A program made the translations under genes and the position numbers. The notes below the pieces were generated by a model. It had not been told where the DNA came from. It was given only the letters and a program-made list of their open reading frames with translations, and ran no database searches. From positions 1-64,000 of the forward strand of contig WRFZ01000178.1 of assembly GCA_009778655.1 (NCBI GenBank): a stretch of 64,000 bases of DNA, written 5' to 3'. Source of the DNA: Candidatus Azobacteroides sp. Its GTDB lineage: Bacteria > Bacteroidota > Bacteroidia > Bacteroidales > Azobacteroidaceae. Shown one piece after another: positions 1 to 6,785 of the stretch (within the stretch, counting starts at the first letter, position 1; the number at the start of each line of letters is the position of its first letter).

Positions 1-192
1 TGCTAAAAAGAGAAAGTAAATGAATGGGACAACGAAAAGAGCCTGAATCACGCTTACATATTCGAATGCAGGAAATATCCACATTTTTAGGGCAAAAGCT
101 AAAAATAAGAATCCGCATCCCATCAATCCATTGATTATTCTTTTTTTCATCTTCTCGGAATATTTATTCAATTGTTTTTCGCCTATTATCAT
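1..192 (-). CDS. Partial small membrane protein at the left edge
   Basis: An open frame runs from an ATG at 192 off the left edge of the window (64 codons visible, no stop). The N-terminus is basic (residues 1-18, many Lys/Arg), followed by two hydrophobic stretches at about residues 21-35 and 43-64, which look like membrane segments. It lies 61 bp downstream of two double-glycine-leader peptide genes on the same strand, and it does not carry such a leader itself. Small membrane proteins next to class II bacteriocin genes are often immunity proteins, so that is a possible role, but this is inference from position only. I do not recognise the family. Confidence 0.5.
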   Translation of the reverse strand, partial: MIIGEKQLNKYSEKMKKRIINGLMGCGFLFLAFALKMWIFPAFEYVSVIQALFVVPFIYFLFLA

Positions 193-253
193 ATATCTAT
201 AAATCAAGGATTGAATATAAAATCCAATCCTTGATTTATATAAACCGATTGTT

Positions 254-427
254 TTACAATAAGGGGACGTTAGCATCATTCAGAAGCATCTCTGCTTGTG
301 CAAACATACCAAATGCATAACCTGCGAGCCAACACACTGCTTCAGTTACTTCTGACGCCCCTCCATTTATATTTTCACATTCGCGTTGACTCAACTCAAT
401 TATTTCAAAATTACGATTTGTTTTCAT
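254..427 (-). CDS. Double-glycine leader peptide precursor 1 (57 aa)
   Basis: A 57-residue ORF with ATG at 427 and TAA at 254-256. Residues 11-23 read ELSQRECENINGG, which matches the bacteriocin-type double-glycine leader (Leu-Ser, acidic residue, Asn-Ile, Gly-Gly). Cleavage after Gly23 would release a 34-residue peptide, starting Ala-Ser-Glu, with one Cys (Cys32 of the precursor) and a GYAFG (GxxxG) segment at 36-40. GxxxG motifs mediate helix pairing in two-peptide bacteriocins. It lies 37 bp after precursor 2 and downstream of a C39 peptidase-exporter, the enzyme class that cuts such leaders. No maturation enzyme (radical SAM, lanthionine synthetase) is nearby, so an unmodified peptide is likely. 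Toxin versus signal cannot be decided. Confidence 0.75.
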   Translation of the reverse strand: MKTNRNFEIIELSQRECENINGGASEVTEAVCWLAGYAFGMFAQAEMLLNDANVPLL

Positions 428-464
428 AACGATTGATTTTTATGAATAAATTACTTAATTAAAA

Positions 465-650
465 CTAATTAAAAGACGCATTGTATCCTGCCGCAAACGC
501 AGCACCCGATGAAGAAGGGTTTAAGCATATATCAATCGCAATAGCGAGTAAAACTGCTCCAATCGGGCCCCACACGCCACCATTCACGTTTCCCAATTCG
601 GCATTTTCCATTTCCTTTACGCCATAGGCGTTCAAATCTAAATTTTTCAT
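465..650 (-). CDS. Double-glycine leader peptide precursor 2 (61 aa)
   Basis: A 61-residue ORF. Residues 11-25 (VKEMENAELGNVNGG) form a double-glycine leader. The predicted mature part is 36 residues, strongly hydrophobic at first (starting VWGPIGAVLL) and then rich in small residues (Gly, Ala, Ser), with one Cys and no Lys or Arg. This composition fits a membrane-active class II bacteriocin-like peptide or a hydrophobic signal. It shares the leader pattern Asn-[Ile/Val]-Asn-Gly-Gly with precursor 1 (37 bp downstream), so both are probably exported by the same C39 ABC exporter. A TTTG-N19-TAnnTTTG promoter ends 8 bp before the ATG, implying almost no 5' UTR. Mature identity and activity are unknown. 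Confidence 0.8.
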   Translation of the reverse strand: MKNLDLNAYGVKEMENAELGNVNGGVWGPIGAVLLAIAIDICLNPSSSGAAFAAGYNASFN

Positions 651-657
651 ACGACTG

Positions 658-688
658 CAAAATTAATTAATTAATACTATATTTCAAA
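658..688 (-). promoter_or_regulatory. Bacteroidota promoter before precursor 2
   Basis: Read on the minus strand there is TTTG (688-685), a 19-bp spacer, then TAATTTTG (665-658), matching the -33 TTTG / -7 TAnnTTTG consensus. Transcription would start near 654, only a few bases before the ATG at 650. This would let the two peptide genes be transcribed separately from the exporter operon. Confidence 0.55.
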
Positions 689-765
689 CAAATTTTGTTT
701 AAAAATCGCCCGAATTTTTCGCGTGCACTCAAATAACCCGTTTGATGCTGCAAATTTAAGCGCAT

Positions 766-1083
766 TCACGGCACAAAAAAAGCCGTAAATGAAAAATTCG
801 TCAAAAATGTAATTCCCGCCGAAATATTTTTTTGATCTTTGTCGGATAAGCGTTGGAAAGTGCAGGAAATGTCAATTTCAAACGGCTCTTTGTAATAATA
901 GGTTTCGTTCCGCCGGGAGTATTCAATCGGCGCTCCCAAGTCTTTCATTTCAACGATAATTTCCCGTAAATGCCGTTCACTGATTCTCATTCGTCGGGCA
1001 AATTCTTCGGGCGTACCTGTACACGAGGCATTAATTAATCGGTGGATTCGTTGCAACAGTTCGATTTGTTTGAATAGGATCAT
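766..1083 (-). CDS. Small HTH DNA-binding protein with a leader-like tail (105 aa)
   Basis: Residues 1-60 form a helix-turn-helix of the HTH_11/WYL-N-terminal type, with the recognition helix around ISERHLREIIVEMK. A short wing follows with a run of Tyr (YYYKEPFEIDI). The last 30 residues are unusual: RLSDKDQKNISAG, then 15 hydrophobic residues. This tail aligns with the double-glycine leaders of the two peptide genes downstream (Leu-Ser, acidic residue, Asn-Ile, small residue, Gly), with Ala-Gly in place of Gly-Gly. The gene lies between the exporter and the precursors, 33 bp after the exporter stop. It probably regulates the locus. Whether the tail is processed by the C39 peptidase is open. 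Confidence 0.75.
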   Translation of the reverse strand: MILFKQIELLQRIHRLINASCTGTPEEFARRMRISERHLREIIVEMKDLGAPIEYSRRNETYYYKEPFEIDISCTFQRLSDKDQKNISAGITFLTNFSFTAFFVP

Positions 1084-1120
1084 ATGAATTATGAATTATA
1101 AATTATGAATTATGAATTAA
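1084..1120. repeat. ATGAATT/ATAAATT repeat tract
   Basis: A tract of ATGAATT/ATAAATT units fills the gap between the HTH gene and the exporter, and overlaps the exporter stop codon (1117-1119). The same low-complexity unit recurs at about 36178-36240, 36363-36415 and 50091-50147. Confidence 0.7.
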
Positions 1121-3276
1121 AGCGTATTTGTTTGGTTGTTCCATAGTTTCCAATACATTCCTTGGGCTTCCGACAGTTGGGCGTGGGTACCGGTTTCCAC
1201 TACTTTCCCTTCTTGTAAGACAATAATATTATCGGCATGCTTAACGGTGCTTAACCTGTGAGCAATGATAACGATTGTTTTCCCTTCCCGGGCCAAATCC
1301 GTTAAAGTCTGTTTGACGTATTGTTCCGAAAGAGTATCCAAGGAGGAAGTCGCTTCGTCGAAAATCAGTAAATCGGGGTCTTTGTACAAAGCACGGGCAA
1401 TGGCAATTCGTTGCCGTTCGCCGCCGGAAAGCGATGCGCCATGCTCGCCGATAAACGTCCCGTAAGATTGAGGCAGGTTTTCGATAAATTCCCGGATGCC
1501 CAATCGTTCGCACAATGCGATGATTTTTTTCATGTCCGGTTCAAAATCGCCCAATGCAATGTTTTCGGTAACGGTTCCGGCAAACAGTTCAATTTGCTGA
1601 GGTACCGAACCGATTCGTTGCCGCAGACTTTCGTTACTGATTTGCGATAAATTGTAGTTCCCGATATAAATATTTCCCGATCGAATGGGATACAGATTTT
1701 GCAACAGTGAAACCAAAGTGGTTTTTCCGGAGCCGCTTTCTCCGACCACGGCTGTCGTTTGCCCTTTCCGAATAGTTAAAGTCAAAGAATCGAACACTTG
1801 TTTCCGTGAACCGTAGCGAAAAGCAACCGCTTGGAAATGAATGTCGCCGACCTCCGCTTTTTCCAATCGAATTTTTTGCGAATCGTCTTCTTCCCGTTCC
1901 AAATCCAGAATCTGAAACAAGCGGTCGGCGGCAATCAACGCATCCTGTATGGTTTGATTGGAAGCGATCAGTTTGCCGACCGGTCCAAGTACGTATCCGA
2001 CCAATGAATAGAAGAGCATTAACGTACCCGGCGTTATTTCTTGATGAATAACCAAGTTACTTCCCGCCCACAATACGGCAATCGTTATTCCCGTTGAAAC
2101 CAATTCGATTCCATTATTGGCAAGAATGGATCCGTAAATGCTTTGATACGTGTTTTTTAATACGTTAACAAAACGAAATTCCGTTTTCAGATTGGCAAAT
2201 GTTTCAACACCGAATTGTTTGATTGTCGAAACCGAATGGAGCGATTCCACCAAATGAGCTTCCAAATCCGCTCCGCTTTCCATGATTTTCCGTTGGTATT
2301 TTTTATTCAAGCGGTTAAAAAGATAGTAAATCAAGAGAAACAAAGGAGCGGATAACAAAGTGATTATCGCTAATTTCCAAGAAAAAATCAGCATGACACC
2401 GATGGTAAACAGTAAAATTAAAAAATTGACTGCCAAATCCAAAGAAACGTTGTTGATAAATACCCGAATTTTCACGGCGTCGTTGATACGGGAAATAATT
2501 TCCCCGACACGCATCGTATCAAAAAAAGACTGAGGTAAAGTAAGCAAGTGCTTGTAATAGCCCAGTATCAGGGAAGCATCTATCCGTTGTCCGGTTTGCA
2601 ATGCCAAAACGCTTTTCATCACGCCGATAAATATTCGCATGACAAGAATCAAGAGCATCACGATACTCATCAGGTTCAATAAATTCACATTCTGATCCGC
2701 TAATACATAATCGGTAATCTTTCCGACATAAACGGACGTAGAAAGTCCGAGGATACTGTAAATAATCGCGCCGAATAGGGCTTGCGTCATAACGCTCTGG
2801 TGCGGTCGTATCAAATCAATAAAGCTTCGTAAAGCGCTCTTTTTTTGATTTCCTCTTTGAAAAGTTTCGTTCGGAAGCATCAATATCAAAACGCCGGTCC
2901 ATTCTTTTTTAAATTCTTCGTGCGTCTTTTTATGCAATTTCCCGTCGCTCGGATCCATTACCGTAATCGTTTGATCTGTGACCTTGCAAATGACGACAAA
3001 ATGTTGCAATTGCTCTTTGACAATGACATGGGCAATCGCCGGTTTGGGAATTTCTTTTAAACATTCATACGGCCCCTTAACTCCTTTGGCTTCAAAACCC
3101 AATTTTTGAGCGGCTTCGATCATTCCCAAGACGTTGGTTCCTTTTTGGTCGGTAAAAGCGTACTGACGAATGCGGGCAATCGGCATTTTCAATCCGTAAT
3201 GAGCGGCAACCGAAGCCAAGCAAGCGGCGCCGCAATCGGTACTGTCGTGTTGTTTTATTTGAATACCTTTTTTCAT
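1117..3276 (-). CDS. C39 peptidase-containing ABC exporter (PCAT)
   Basis: A 719-residue exporter that removes double-glycine leaders and transports the released peptides across the inner membrane. The peptidase domain (1-135) has the full C39 catalytic set: Gln9, Cys15 in DSTDCGAACL, His92 in QHFVVI and Asp108 in VMDPSDG. The membrane domain (about 160-440) has six hydrophobic helices. The ATPase domain (about 480-719) has Walker A GESGSGKTT near residue 515, the signature LSGGERQR, and Walker B LLIFDEATSSLD. Length is normal for the family. The adaptor gene ends 18 bp upstream and the HTH gene starts 33 bp downstream, so these form one operon. No TolC-type outer-membrane channel is encoded in the window; one would have to be supplied from elsewhere. 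Confidence 0.95.
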   Translation of the reverse strand: MKKGIQIKQHDSTDCGAACLASVAAHYGLKMPIARIRQYAFTDQKGTNVLGMIEAAQKLGFEAKGVKGPYECLKEIPKPAIAHVIVKEQLQHFVVICKVTDQTITVMDPSDGKLHKKTHEEFKKEWTGVLILMLPNETFQRGNQKKSALRSFIDLIRPHQSVMTQALFGAIIYSILGLSTSVYVGKITDYVLADQNVNLLNLMSIVMLLILVMRIFIGVMKSVLALQTGQRIDASLILGYYKHLLTLPQSFFDTMRVGEIISRINDAVKIRVFINNVSLDLAVNFLILLFTIGVMLIFSWKLAIITLLSAPLFLLIYYLFNRLNKKYQRKIMESGADLEAHLVESLHSVSTIKQFGVETFANLKTEFRFVNVLKNTYQSIYGSILANNGIELVSTGITIAVLWAGSNLVIHQEITPGTLMLFYSLVGYVLGPVGKLIASNQTIQDALIAADRLFQILDLEREEDDSQKIRLEKAEVGDIHFQAVAFRYGSRKQVFDSLTLTIRKGQTTAVVGESGSGKTTLVSLLQNLYPIRSGNIYIGNYNLSQISNESLRQRIGSVPQQIELFAGTVTENIALGDFEPDMKKIIALCERLGIREFIENLPQSYGTFIGEHGASLSGGERQRIAIARALYKDPDLLIFDEATSSLDTLSEQYVKQTLTDLAREGKTIVIIAHRLSTVKHADNIIVLQEGKVVETGTHAQLSEAQGMYWKLWNNQTNTL

Positions 3277-3294
3277 TTTTTATTATCTTGTTTT

Positions 3295-4452
3295 CTATTC
3301 TTCCTTTTGGTTTTGCGTCGGATTCATCCAATCGTCCATTTTTTGATACAGGCAATCCAGCAACGATCGTCTTGTAATCCGGAAATGCGCATTCACCGTC
3401 ATTCCCTTTTTCAATAAACCTTTTACACCGTTTTTTCGTATTAAGTAACTCCTGTCCATGCTGCATTTGACTTTGTAGTAGAACTTATTTCCCGTATTGT
3501 CCGTCAAAAAATCGGAGGATATATCCGTTACTTTTCCGGAGATGCTTCCCCATTCATTGTAATTGAATGAACCGACTTGAATGTTTACCGGCATATTCGT
3601 ACTGATATAACCGATATTGGAAGGGGAAACATCAATTTCGGCATACAGCGTGGAATCGGGACTGACAACCGCCAACAAACTGCCGGATTGAATCATGCTG
3701 CCACGATAAATCCCGCTAAACTGGTCTAAAGTTCCGTTTACCAGACTGACAATCACATAACTGTCTTTTTCTTTCAACTGCTGTTTCAATGAATTGGTCA
3801 TTTCTTCCAAAGAATTGGTATAGGAGTTTAGATCATTTTGCCATTGACTGATTCGGTCGTTTTGCAGAGAAGCCGAGGCATTCCGGTCCTTATCATATTC
3901 GTAACGGTAATTTTCGTATTCTTCGGCGGAAATAACTCCTTTTTCAAACAAGATTTGATTTCGTTCCAAATCTTGTTGGGATTTGGCAAGATTCGTCTCC
4001 TGTTCCTGTTTATGCCGGATAAACAGGGCGTATTCCTGTCGGCGGCTTTCCGAAGCAAAGGAATCGGGCTTTAAGCCTTTGGATAGAAAAGTCAAATCGC
4101 TGATATGTTCCCGCAAATCCCGGATACGTTTTTTCTGATATTCGATTTGAAAATCCGGACTCGTTTGAAGAAAAGTTAAAATCGTGTCGCCTTGACGAAG
4201 CGTTTGTCCTTCCTTGACATAGATAGAATCAATCCGTTCCGTAATACTTGATTTAATTTCCGTCTTTTCACTTATCGGGCGGATAATGCCGGCGTCTTGT
4301 ACCGATATATCCACATAAACAAAAGGCAGAGCGCTGATAGCGAGTACAATGAAAGCGATTACAAGCAGGTAGATTTTCCGGGAGGAAGTAACGTATTTGC
4401 TAAGGTACGTGTCAATTCCGTTTAGAATTAACTCAGAGGGTAGTATATTCAT
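3295..4452 (-). CDS. HlyD-family membrane fusion protein
   Basis: A 385-residue periplasmic adaptor for the adjacent exporter. It has a cytoplasmic N-terminus, one membrane helix at about residues 27-48, a lipoyl-like half-motif (IYVKEGQTLRQGDTIL, 77-92), a long charged alpha-helical hairpin (about 105-225) and a beta-barrel region (VVSPDSTLYAEIDVSPSNIG) typical of HlyD/LctQ adaptors. It is the first gene of the export operon. No canonical promoter lies directly before it. The nearest match is at 4761-4791, which would give a transcript leader of about 300 nt containing a large palindromic element. Confidence 0.93.
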   Translation of the reverse strand: MNILPSELILNGIDTYLSKYVTSSRKIYLLVIAFIVLAISALPFVYVDISVQDAGIIRPISEKTEIKSSITERIDSIYVKEGQTLRQGDTILTFLQTSPDFQIEYQKKRIRDLREHISDLTFLSKGLKPDSFASESRRQEYALFIRHKQEQETNLAKSQQDLERNQILFEKGVISAEEYENYRYEYDKDRNASASLQNDRISQWQNDLNSYTNSLEEMTNSLKQQLKEKDSYVIVSLVNGTLDQFSGIYRGSMIQSGSLLAVVSPDSTLYAEIDVSPSNIGYISTNMPVNIQVGSFNYNEWGSISGKVTDISSDFLTDNTGNKFYYKVKCSMDRSYLIRKNGVKGLLKKGMTVNAHFRITRRSLLDCLYQKMDDWMNPTQNQKEE

Positions 4453-4502
4453 AAGTTAAAAAATCATGCTTTCAAGTCCCGAAAAAGCAATTTTTAAAAA
4501 TA

Positions 4503-4665
4503 ATAAAGCGTGGGACTATAACTTTATTCGCTTTCGAGGTCTTAGGATACCATTGCTACAAATAGAGTAAGCCCACGCCGTGAGGCGTGAGCGCCGACTA
4601 CTTACTCTTGTAGCTTTTTGAAATTTCCTAAGTTTCGAAAGCAAAAGTAAAAGCTAACGCTTTAT
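4503..4665. repeat. 163-bp nested palindromic element
   Basis: Five nested inverted-repeat pairs fold the segment into one long hairpin. They are ATAAAGCGT (4503-4511) with ACGCTTTAT (4657-4665), GCTTTCGA (4530-4537) with TCGAAAGC (4635-4642), CTTAGGA (4541-4547) with TCCTAAG (4626-4632), GCTACAA (4555-4561) with TTGTAGC (4608-4614), and GAGTAAG (4565-4571) with CTTACTC (4601-4607). A CACGCC/GGCGTG hairpin (4574-4589) lies inside the apical part. There is no ORF. It may be a MITE or REP-type element, or a structured RNA in the leader of the export operon. I do not recognise it as a named family. Confidence 0.8.
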
Positions 4666-4760
4666 CAAATATGTCTCACTTATATAAAGGCTTTTTACAT
4701 ATTCATTCTTTTTTAATTATTTTTATATTTGAATGAGCCGATACAAAGCTCTTGTGTTTG

Positions 4761-4791
4761 CAAAAGTACATTTTTTTTTGATATATGTCAA
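4761..4791 (-). promoter_or_regulatory. Probable promoter of the peptide-export operon
   Basis: On the minus strand: GTTG (4791-4788, one mismatch to TTTG), a spacer of about 19 bp, and TACTTTTG (4768-4761). A start near 4757 gives a leader of about 300 nt before the HlyD-type gene, running through the palindromic element. It sits just after the stop of the DUF4954 gene. Confidence 0.45.
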
Positions 4792-6785
4792 CGAATATCG
4801 GTAATTAATGATTTCATTTCATTGATCAGCCGGTCTCCCAATTCGGTTTTTTCTTCAATGTGTTGCAGAATCGAAGAAACAAAGGTGTTTTGCTCAAAAA
4901 CGCCTCGCACCTGCTCGAAGTCCAACCGTTGCTCATCATTGTTTCCGTCCGCTCCGAACCCGGTTTGAGCGGAAAGCGAAAATTCTTTTTCGGCATCTTG
5001 ATAAAGAATTTTATCTAATTTTATCACCGCTTCTTTCCAATCTTCAACCAGATGAATAATATCTTCCGGCGTTATCGTATCCGGTTTAAATCCGTAATAC
5101 GATTGAATTTTATCCCAAGCCCATGCCCATTCCAACACATAATAATTTCGGTGAATTTCTTCCAAAATATGATTTATTTCTTTGAGTTTATTGACTTTAC
5201 CCGATTCTATATCGCTTAATAAACGGTCAATTAACATTTTGGGAGCAATTAAACCGGCAATGTCCAACCATTCTCCTAAACCGTCGCTCGTTTCGGGATT
5301 CAATTGTTTTCGGAGCGCTTCGACGGAAGTAAACGGGTGTCCTTTGATTCGGGAAATAATCGAATTACCTAAAAACTTCTTGATAGCAATATGATACAAA
5401 TCAATTCCTTTTTTCAGTGAAGAATTTTTAATGCGGCAACTTTGGTACGAATAATACTCGGAGGTGTATCCGCAAGTTTCCTGTAATCCGTGCAAAATAT
5501 CAATGGCCCGAAACATTTTTTGAATGGTATAGGGACTCAGCAGATTGAAATTGAGTTGATCCAACAGATTCGGATCTTTTCTTTCATCTCTTTTCGGAAA
5601 TTTTTTCGCATCGCGAATCGTTCCTACGCTTCTCAAATTAACACCCGGAACCAAAATGGTTTCGTCTTTACTTTCAATTAAATAGGAAAAAGGCAGATTT
5701 GATGTATCGGAATTTCGGTAATGACGTCCCATAATCAAAGAGAAAGCGCCGATTTTAGCGGGCCATAAAACATAGGAGTCGCTGGTCGTTTTGCCTCCTC
5801 TTTCGATAATTCCTTGATGAATAGGGCCTAATTTGTACATGTGATTGCTTTGATTGGAGCCGGAACCGGCATTCATGAACGAAAACATACCGGCGATCAG
5901 CAGGGTGGACTTGTGATGCGTAACGGTATAAGGTCCGGCGAAAATGGCGCAAGCTTCTCCGTTTTCTCCTTGACAATTACAGAAAAACAAAGAGTCGCGA
6001 GCCGAATACCCATGTCCCAATCGGCAGGATTGTCCCACAAAACAACGGGTTAGCATCGTACCGTCTTCCACATGCGATCCGGAGCAAAGGATAAAATCTT
6101 CGGCGATAACGCCGTATCCCACATGAACCGGGTCGTATTCATTGCTGTTAATGCTTCCGTTTTCCAAACGGCACGCTCCTTCGATGCAGGCATTGTCGCC
6201 TATTTTTACGTTGCGGATGAATCCGGTATTCATAATTTTCACATGGTCGCCGATGGTTCCGATTTCCGAAGCATGTTTATCCGCATAAAAACGAATCATC
6301 TCGCGCAAATGTCGAACCAACTCCGGTCGGTGACGATACAAAGCCAGAATGTAAGCCACATGCGCCGAGAGTTTATCGTTAATCATCACTTCCCGGCCTC
6401 CCGTTTCGTTCAAGACAGCCACTTCCGTACCGTTTCCGAAAGCGGATTTTTCATCCGTAACCAAGCAGTCAAGATTTTGAATTAAAGTGTTATCTCCTAT
6501 CCTGTAATTGGCAATGTAGTTCTGTACGTTTTCTATCAATACATTATCTCCCAATTCGCAATTATGGATGGAAACATTGCGAAGTCCCGCCGTTTTTTTC
6601 AATCCGCCGGAAAAAGTAAATGTTCCGTCGGTTTTTCCGATTTTTATGTTTCCGGAAAAAGATACTTTGCGTATATTCTTCGGGTTAAATTCCGGATGAA
6701 CTTCGATGTCGTTCCAATCGGAAGCCGTACAATCGCGCGATTCCAAAAAGGTAATTTCCTTTGGCGTCAATTTTCTGAATGTCAT
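4788..6785 (-). CDS. DUF4954 family protein with left-handed beta-helix
   Basis: A 665-residue cytoplasmic protein of the DUF4954 type found in Bacteroidales. Residues about 60-330 contain imperfect hexapeptide repeats (NVKIGDNACIEGACRLENG, GDNVLIENV and similar), as in left-handed beta-helix acyl- or nucleotidyl-transferases. The C-terminal third (about 410-665) is alpha-helical and charged. Beta-helix proteins of this kind often act on nucleotide sugars, but the reaction of DUF4954 is not established, and nothing here fixes a substrate. There is no signal peptide. It ends just upstream of the peptide-export operon and starts 56 bp after hflX on the same strand. Confidence 0.85.
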   Translation of the reverse strand: MTFRKLTPKEITFLESRDCTASDWNDIEVHPEFNPKNIRKVSFSGNIKIGKTDGTFTFSGGLKKTAGLRNVSIHNCELGDNVLIENVQNYIANYRIGDNTLIQNLDCLVTDEKSAFGNGTEVAVLNETGGREVMINDKLSAHVAYILALYRHRPELVRHLREMIRFYADKHASEIGTIGDHVKIMNTGFIRNVKIGDNACIEGACRLENGSINSNEYDPVHVGYGVIAEDFILCSGSHVEDGTMLTRCFVGQSCRLGHGYSARDSLFFCNCQGENGEACAIFAGPYTVTHHKSTLLIAGMFSFMNAGSGSNQSNHMYKLGPIHQGIIERGGKTTSDSYVLWPAKIGAFSLIMGRHYRNSDTSNLPFSYLIESKDETILVPGVNLRSVGTIRDAKKFPKRDERKDPNLLDQLNFNLLSPYTIQKMFRAIDILHGLQETCGYTSEYYSYQSCRIKNSSLKKGIDLYHIAIKKFLGNSIISRIKGHPFTSVEALRKQLNPETSDGLGEWLDIAGLIAPKMLIDRLLSDIESGKVNKLKEINHILEEIHRNYYVLEWAWAWDKIQSYYGFKPDTITPEDIIHLVEDWKEAVIKLDKILYQDAEKEFSLSAQTGFGADGNNDEQRLDFEQVRGVFEQNTFVSSILQHIEEKTELGDRLINEMKSLITDIR

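Follow-up and report, generated by a model that had tools for sequence, protein, structure and literature searches.

A 105-residue protein encoded on the minus strand of a Bacteroidales genome (766-1083 of the 64,000-nt stretch of DNA analysed, here called the window) joins a winged helix-turn-helix (wHTH) domain to a tail that resembles the double-glycine leaders of the peptide precursors encoded next to it. We propose that it is a leader-tagged one-component repressor that would be docked by a C39 exporter, with export capacity feeding back on precursor transcription; judged from sequence comparison, this scheme has about an even chance of being right. Slightly short of even is the generalization that such proteins form a widespread, undescribed class of Bacteroidota regulators that bear the tag recognised by an exporter and control that exporter's cargo. 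No description of an HTH protein with a double-glycine tail was found in the literature searched, which leaves most subscription journals outside it, and one paper only raises the question of the substrate for the C39 exporter HetC (PMC10986499).

The HTH gene, which starts with ATG, has a C39 exporter gene on one side and two double-glycine precursor genes on the other, in a minus-strand operon ordered HlyD adaptor, C39 ABC exporter, HTH protein, precursor 2 and precursor 1. The exporter (1117-3276) scored above the cut-off for TIGR01193 (551 bits), matched Peptidase_C39 and contains the candidate catalytic residues Cys15, His92 and Asp108; its HlyD-family adaptor (3295-4452) was identified by profile matches. 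Precursor 2 (61 residues, 465-650) and precursor 1 (57 residues, 254-427) carry the leaders KEMENAELGNVNGG and IELSQRECENINGG. Both matched the cerein 7B family model TIGR03949 (class IIb bacteriocins) weakly, with E values of 0.0014 for precursor 2 and 0.009 for precursor 1, the pair falling below its cut-off (15.8 and 18.4 bits vs. 21.5). Directly after the precursors, the start of a small membrane protein, possibly an immunity protein, is cut by the contig end (1-279, minus strand), and a near-perfect AT-rich hairpin behind precursor 1 (198-240; TATAAATCAAGGATTG...CAATCCTTGATTTATA) is probably a bidirectional terminator. At the other end of the operon, a long-hairpin element of about 200 nt (4502-4667, minus strand; folding z-score -5.5) stands immediately 5' of the HlyD gene. 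This element is a dispersed repeat with at least 16 matches in each of four related genomes, and copies occur just before HlyD, before HTH genes and before many genes whose starts resemble signal peptides. An Rfam search of 1-6000, long-hairpin element included, returned nothing above the gathering score. The named relatives of the window genome comprise a Candidatus Symbiothrix and a Dysgonamonadaceae MAG, along with other Bacteroidia genomes.

The HTH open reading frame, which contains TFQRLSDKDQKNISAG, comprises the wHTH domain and the tail RLSDKDQKNISAG. AlphaFold predicted a confident wHTH core at residues 2-64 (892-1080), with pLDDT of about 90-95 over residues 11-70, secondary-structure elements in the order H-H-H-E-E and a recognition helix at residues 36-48 (from SERHLREIIVEM), then a short helix at residues 81-88 that ends just before Ala-Gly, and disorder from residue 90. 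The best Foldseek matches were BirA, NiaR and TM1602, the first two with probabilities of 0.97-1.0 but E values of 0.07-0.2, and the protein missed the Pfam gathering cut-off for HTH_11 (PF08279; 15.8 bits vs. 25, E = 0.013). Aligned at its last Gly, the leader-like segment QRLSDKDQKNISAG (residues 77-90; 814-855) has Leu at -12, Ser at -11, an acidic stretch around -9, Ile at -4, Ala at -2 and Gly at -1. Against the leader pattern of C39/PCAT substrates (hydrophobic residues at -12, -7 and -4, Gly or Ala at -2, Gly at -1), it differs only in having Gln at -7. Its departures from the commonest leader, Ala at -2 and Gln at -7, are both commoner in homologous tails (9/39 and 10/39) than in precursor leaders (2/61, P = 0.003, and 5/61, P = 0.02), an enrichment that may reflect slower cutting.

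Profile searches in samples drawn at family, order, class and phylum level yielded the neighborhoods of 131 distinct homologues in Bacteroidota; one profile scan of genome contigs gave six loci. The evidence is comparative throughout, many of the sampled genomes being MAGs with short contigs; the tail and operator thresholds were chosen within this analysis, and some labels were revised after the data were seen. A strict leader test, which required at least 6 residues after the glycines, was passed by 55 of the 131 homologues, compared with a mean of 4.65 and a maximum of 12 when the post-core residues were shuffled (500 rounds); the frequency of 55/131 is inflated because the first search profile (A1) included the tail, the second (A2) being confined to the core. 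Gly-Gly fell exactly 22 residues past the HTH core in 31 of the 55. Aligned at Gly -1, the tails showed Leu or Ile at -12, Ser at -11, Glu at -8, Ile at -4, Gly or Ala at -2 and Gly at -1, the same position-specific consensus as the precursor leaders of the same loci. Precursor leaders scored on average 4.7-5.5 against the tails and -7.1 against HTH-core windows. Tails had no measurably greater similarity to own-locus leaders than to the leaders of other loci (weak trend, P = 0.13), and own-locus matching at residue -3 was likewise a weak trend (P = 0.09). The first-pass annotation, made from the window alone, had described the tail as a copy of the precursor leader motif, and both the alignment at the last Gly and the shuffling control confirm that description. 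On these comparisons, selection has very probably kept the leader tail.

The tail was also associated with the genes expected of a double-glycine system. A double-glycine precursor lay within 900 nt downstream at 45/59 tailed and 14/67 untailed loci (P = 4e-10), with reverse-strand controls of 0 and 2, and C39 lay directly upstream at 19/53 tailed and 4/71 untailed loci (P = 3e-5). One of the four untailed loci with an upstream C39 gene is truncated by the end of its contig, and two others do have tails, overlooked by the strict test, leaving L204; with the two obvious tails relabelled and the truncated case dropped, the counts became 21/55 and 1/68. C39 was not found in the fetched DNA at 17 of the 55 tailed loci, in a few of which the contig or the fetched stretch ends. 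The order HlyD-C39-HTH-precursors recurred at L101, L102, L104, L115, L062, L064, L066 and L082 and, with an extra gene, at L063; L071 also shares it, though without precursors directly behind the HTH gene, and L192 and L205 have the order HTH-precursors-HlyD-C39. The tail is broken by TAA in L105 and L106, where no C39 gene was found in the DNA stretch fetched. The reading of the tail as a conserved C-terminal leader that co-occurs with C39 exporters and double-glycine precursors is supported. Homologues that keep the HTH domain and have no tail, which the first-pass annotation had named as refuting its reading, do occur (76/131), but mostly where the downstream gene does not encode a double-glycine peptide.

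Several tailed genes occupy other settings. At L074, tailed HTH genes lie among LanA-, LanC- and LanB-like genes, and at L122 they lie beside apparent class I lanthipeptide precursors and LanC-like genes, all of these identified by eye. The tailed genes of L086, L125 and L126 neighbour a family of repeated proteins that share the motif LRKAEQCIIDEKLDSSLYYYQQAL.

When the five closest loci were aligned, the 3' end of the HTH gene and the spacer behind it proved to be conserved as DNA, the last HTH codons (TAFFVP-stop) forming an inverted repeat, ACGGC-N9-GCCGT. The repeat of L102 and L104 is ACTGC-N9-GCAGT, in which compensating substitutions replace Pro by Gln. This candidate operator (TTTACGGC-N9-GCCGTGAA; 765-789, no strand assigned) contains the HTH gene's TGA stop and spans the precursor promoter's -33 region; it is the only perfect match in the window, and the exact combination of operator and -7 box occurs once in the genome. 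Its dyad centre, 777, is exactly 19 bp before the -7 box of that promoter (TAAATTTG; 751-758, minus strand), the Bacteroidota consensus being TAnnTTTG (PMC7366714). A scan of all loci found the 19-bp geometry before a TAnnTTTG-like box at 46 (27/55 tailed and 19/76 untailed), compared with 0-4 loci at each of the other dyad-to-box distances from 8 to 35. With a stricter symmetric score, 16 tailed and 14 untailed loci lay above the 99% level of a null drawn from the other distances. The half-sites align by distance from the dyad centre, with the consensus G-[GC]-A-[CG]-[GT]-G-A-A at k5-k12. The spacer that follows the -7 box (651-760, minus strand; GAGTGCACGC ... TTGCAAGCAA/TTGCTTGCAA) is itself conserved between loci, including L265 and L266, and also precedes genes without an upstream HTH gene, as a shared 5' leader of some promoters.

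To relate the recognition helix to the half-sites, 96 helix-by-base tests were made on 19 lineages with core identities below 60%, with P values from permutation or Fisher tests. Residues 36, 37, 39 and 40 ranked top, and the four tests that reached P <= 0.005 (about 0.5 expected) all fell in the recognition helix. Arg or Lys at residue 36 paired with C at k8 (8/1 vs. 1/9, P = 0.001), and Arg or Lys at residue 40 paired with C at k7 (4/1 vs. 1/13, P = 0.006), both values being uncorrected for the 96 tests. The residue-40 rule is obeyed by the window (R40, C7) and by its neighbours L102 and L104 (H40, Y40, A7). An alternative view of the repeat as a terminator or RNA hairpin is disfavoured by the fixed 19-bp distance, the dyad-centred alignment of the half-sites and the covariation with the helix. 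Since the operator geometry is fixed and helix and half-site covary, the HTH protein very likely regulates the precursor promoter by binding DNA, in agreement with the role first assigned to it, and it very probably binds the operator at 765-789. The placement over the -33 region most likely indicates repression and is still compatible with activation. From this operator code, which links residues 36 and 40 to bases of the half-sites, regulator-target pairs can be predicted by sequence.

The operator also bears on the nature of the 15 residues after Ala-Gly (ITFLTNFSFTAFFVP; 769-813), which by the locus alignment, the operator scan and the substitution pattern are partly operator DNA in translation. 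Pooled pN/pS over 48 related pairs, which share sequences and offer few sites, was 0.34 in the core, 0.50 in the leader and 0.81 after the glycines, and pS was lower after the glycines (0.50 vs. 0.71). This pattern suggests that the leader is held as protein and the part behind it largely as DNA. Across lineages the dyad is read in all three frames (16, 6 and 2 cases), and in L200 the reading frame stops right after Gly-Gly while the repeat is kept outside it; these observations argue against a conserved cargo peptide and for a leader-tagged regulator. A fused precursor, offered as the alternative by the first-pass annotation, would make the wHTH domain an oversized leader or a pheromone-joined regulator, with C39 exporting a 15-residue signal or bacteriocin cut after Ala-Gly. 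The complete leader, the adjacent exporter, the 8-43 residues that follow the glycines in the 55 strict cases (although the test itself demanded at least 6) and the ending FxFTA[FC]FV[PQ] common to close relatives would all fit such a precursor. However, the common ending is itself translated operator, its P/Q swaps tracking ACG/ACT pairing, and the reduced synonymous change, the differing frames and L200 weaken the idea further, so that we consider it unlikely. The endings FxFTAFFVP and F[LR]P..LDG were also considered as peptide pheromones and rejected as the main reading, both being the translated inverted repeat in frames that differ between lineages.

A little less likely again is that the tail acts without C39, its leader-like helix tuning DNA binding by packing on the HTH domain or on some other partner, for instance a modification enzyme or a leader already cleaved free. 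Several tailed members have no C39 gene in the fetched DNA, among them L074 with its Lan-like neighbours, and the HTH offset fixed at 22 residues in so many homologues would suit a packed helix; yet the tail matches the C39 leader consensus down to the glycines, for which a packing helix would have no use, and it tracks double-glycine targets. It is improbable that the tail is the relic of an old HTH-leader fusion, kept only because the reading frame runs to the TGA inside the operator. Two findings would fit a relic: some untailed homologues, such as L112, have a separate double-glycine gene beside them, and the tail label switches seven or more times on the supported branches of a tree that is poorly resolved. 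Yet the leader residues are conserved at the protein level, with constant spacing, in distant lineages, and tail loss is found mainly where the target is something other than a double-glycine peptide.

Under the docking scheme, the HTH protein would be a one-component regulator of the adjoining double-glycine precursor genes, sitting as a dimer on the inverted repeat and most likely repressing; we infer this sign of regulation. Its tail would mimic the precursor leaders, so that the exporter from the gene just upstream could dock the regulator through its C39 domain, perhaps also cutting it slowly at Ala-Gly. With ample free exporter, the regulator would be held or altered and precursors would be made; once precursors filled the exporters, the regulator would be freed and the promoter shut. 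Motif identity and gene association suggest that C39 probably does recognise the tail, and negative feedback on export load is a more tentative step, with somewhat less than an even chance. C39 cutting after Gly-Gly would leave the HTH domain and leader in the cell and release only a short C terminus. Docking is therefore a likelier signal than export, since the DNA-binding part would stay inside, and cutting need not alter DNA binding.

If the scheme is true, exporter occupancy would be read directly at the promoter, the 3' end of the gene would double as its own operator, and the leader-tagged regulator would be a one-protein feedback device. How toxic-peptide synthesis is matched to export capacity is poorly known outside two-component bacteriocin systems. 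In Bacteroidota, the tail also offers a new way to find double-glycine peptide loci.

In predicted fold and in the position of the recognition helix, the HTH protein resembles wHTH regulators of the HTH_11 type, such as the N-terminal domains of BirA and NiaR, but it is a single small domain without a ligand domain, has a secretion leader after the wing and scores below the Pfam cut-off. Double-glycine leader peptides of C39/PCAT exporters include class II bacteriocins, ComC-type pheromones and microcin V. Like them, the tail has a position-specific leader and is encoded beside a C39 ABC exporter with its HlyD partner; unlike them, its leader ends a DNA-binding domain rather than beginning a protein, and mostly operator DNA follows. 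NHLP and Nif11 precursors have a folded domain that acts as a long leader with Gly-Gly at its end. The HTH protein likewise has a folded domain before Gly-Gly, but no modification enzyme was seen in the window operon, and because the operator code is kept, its HTH domain is taken to be a regulator, unlike the NHLP and Nif11 leaders. FlgM and ExsE are secretion-coupled regulators that leave the cell whole. The proposed logic is similar, in that an export machine would inform transcription through a regulator that it recognises, as the motif and gene association here suggest, whereas C39 chemistry would keep the DNA-binding part of the HTH protein inside the cell.
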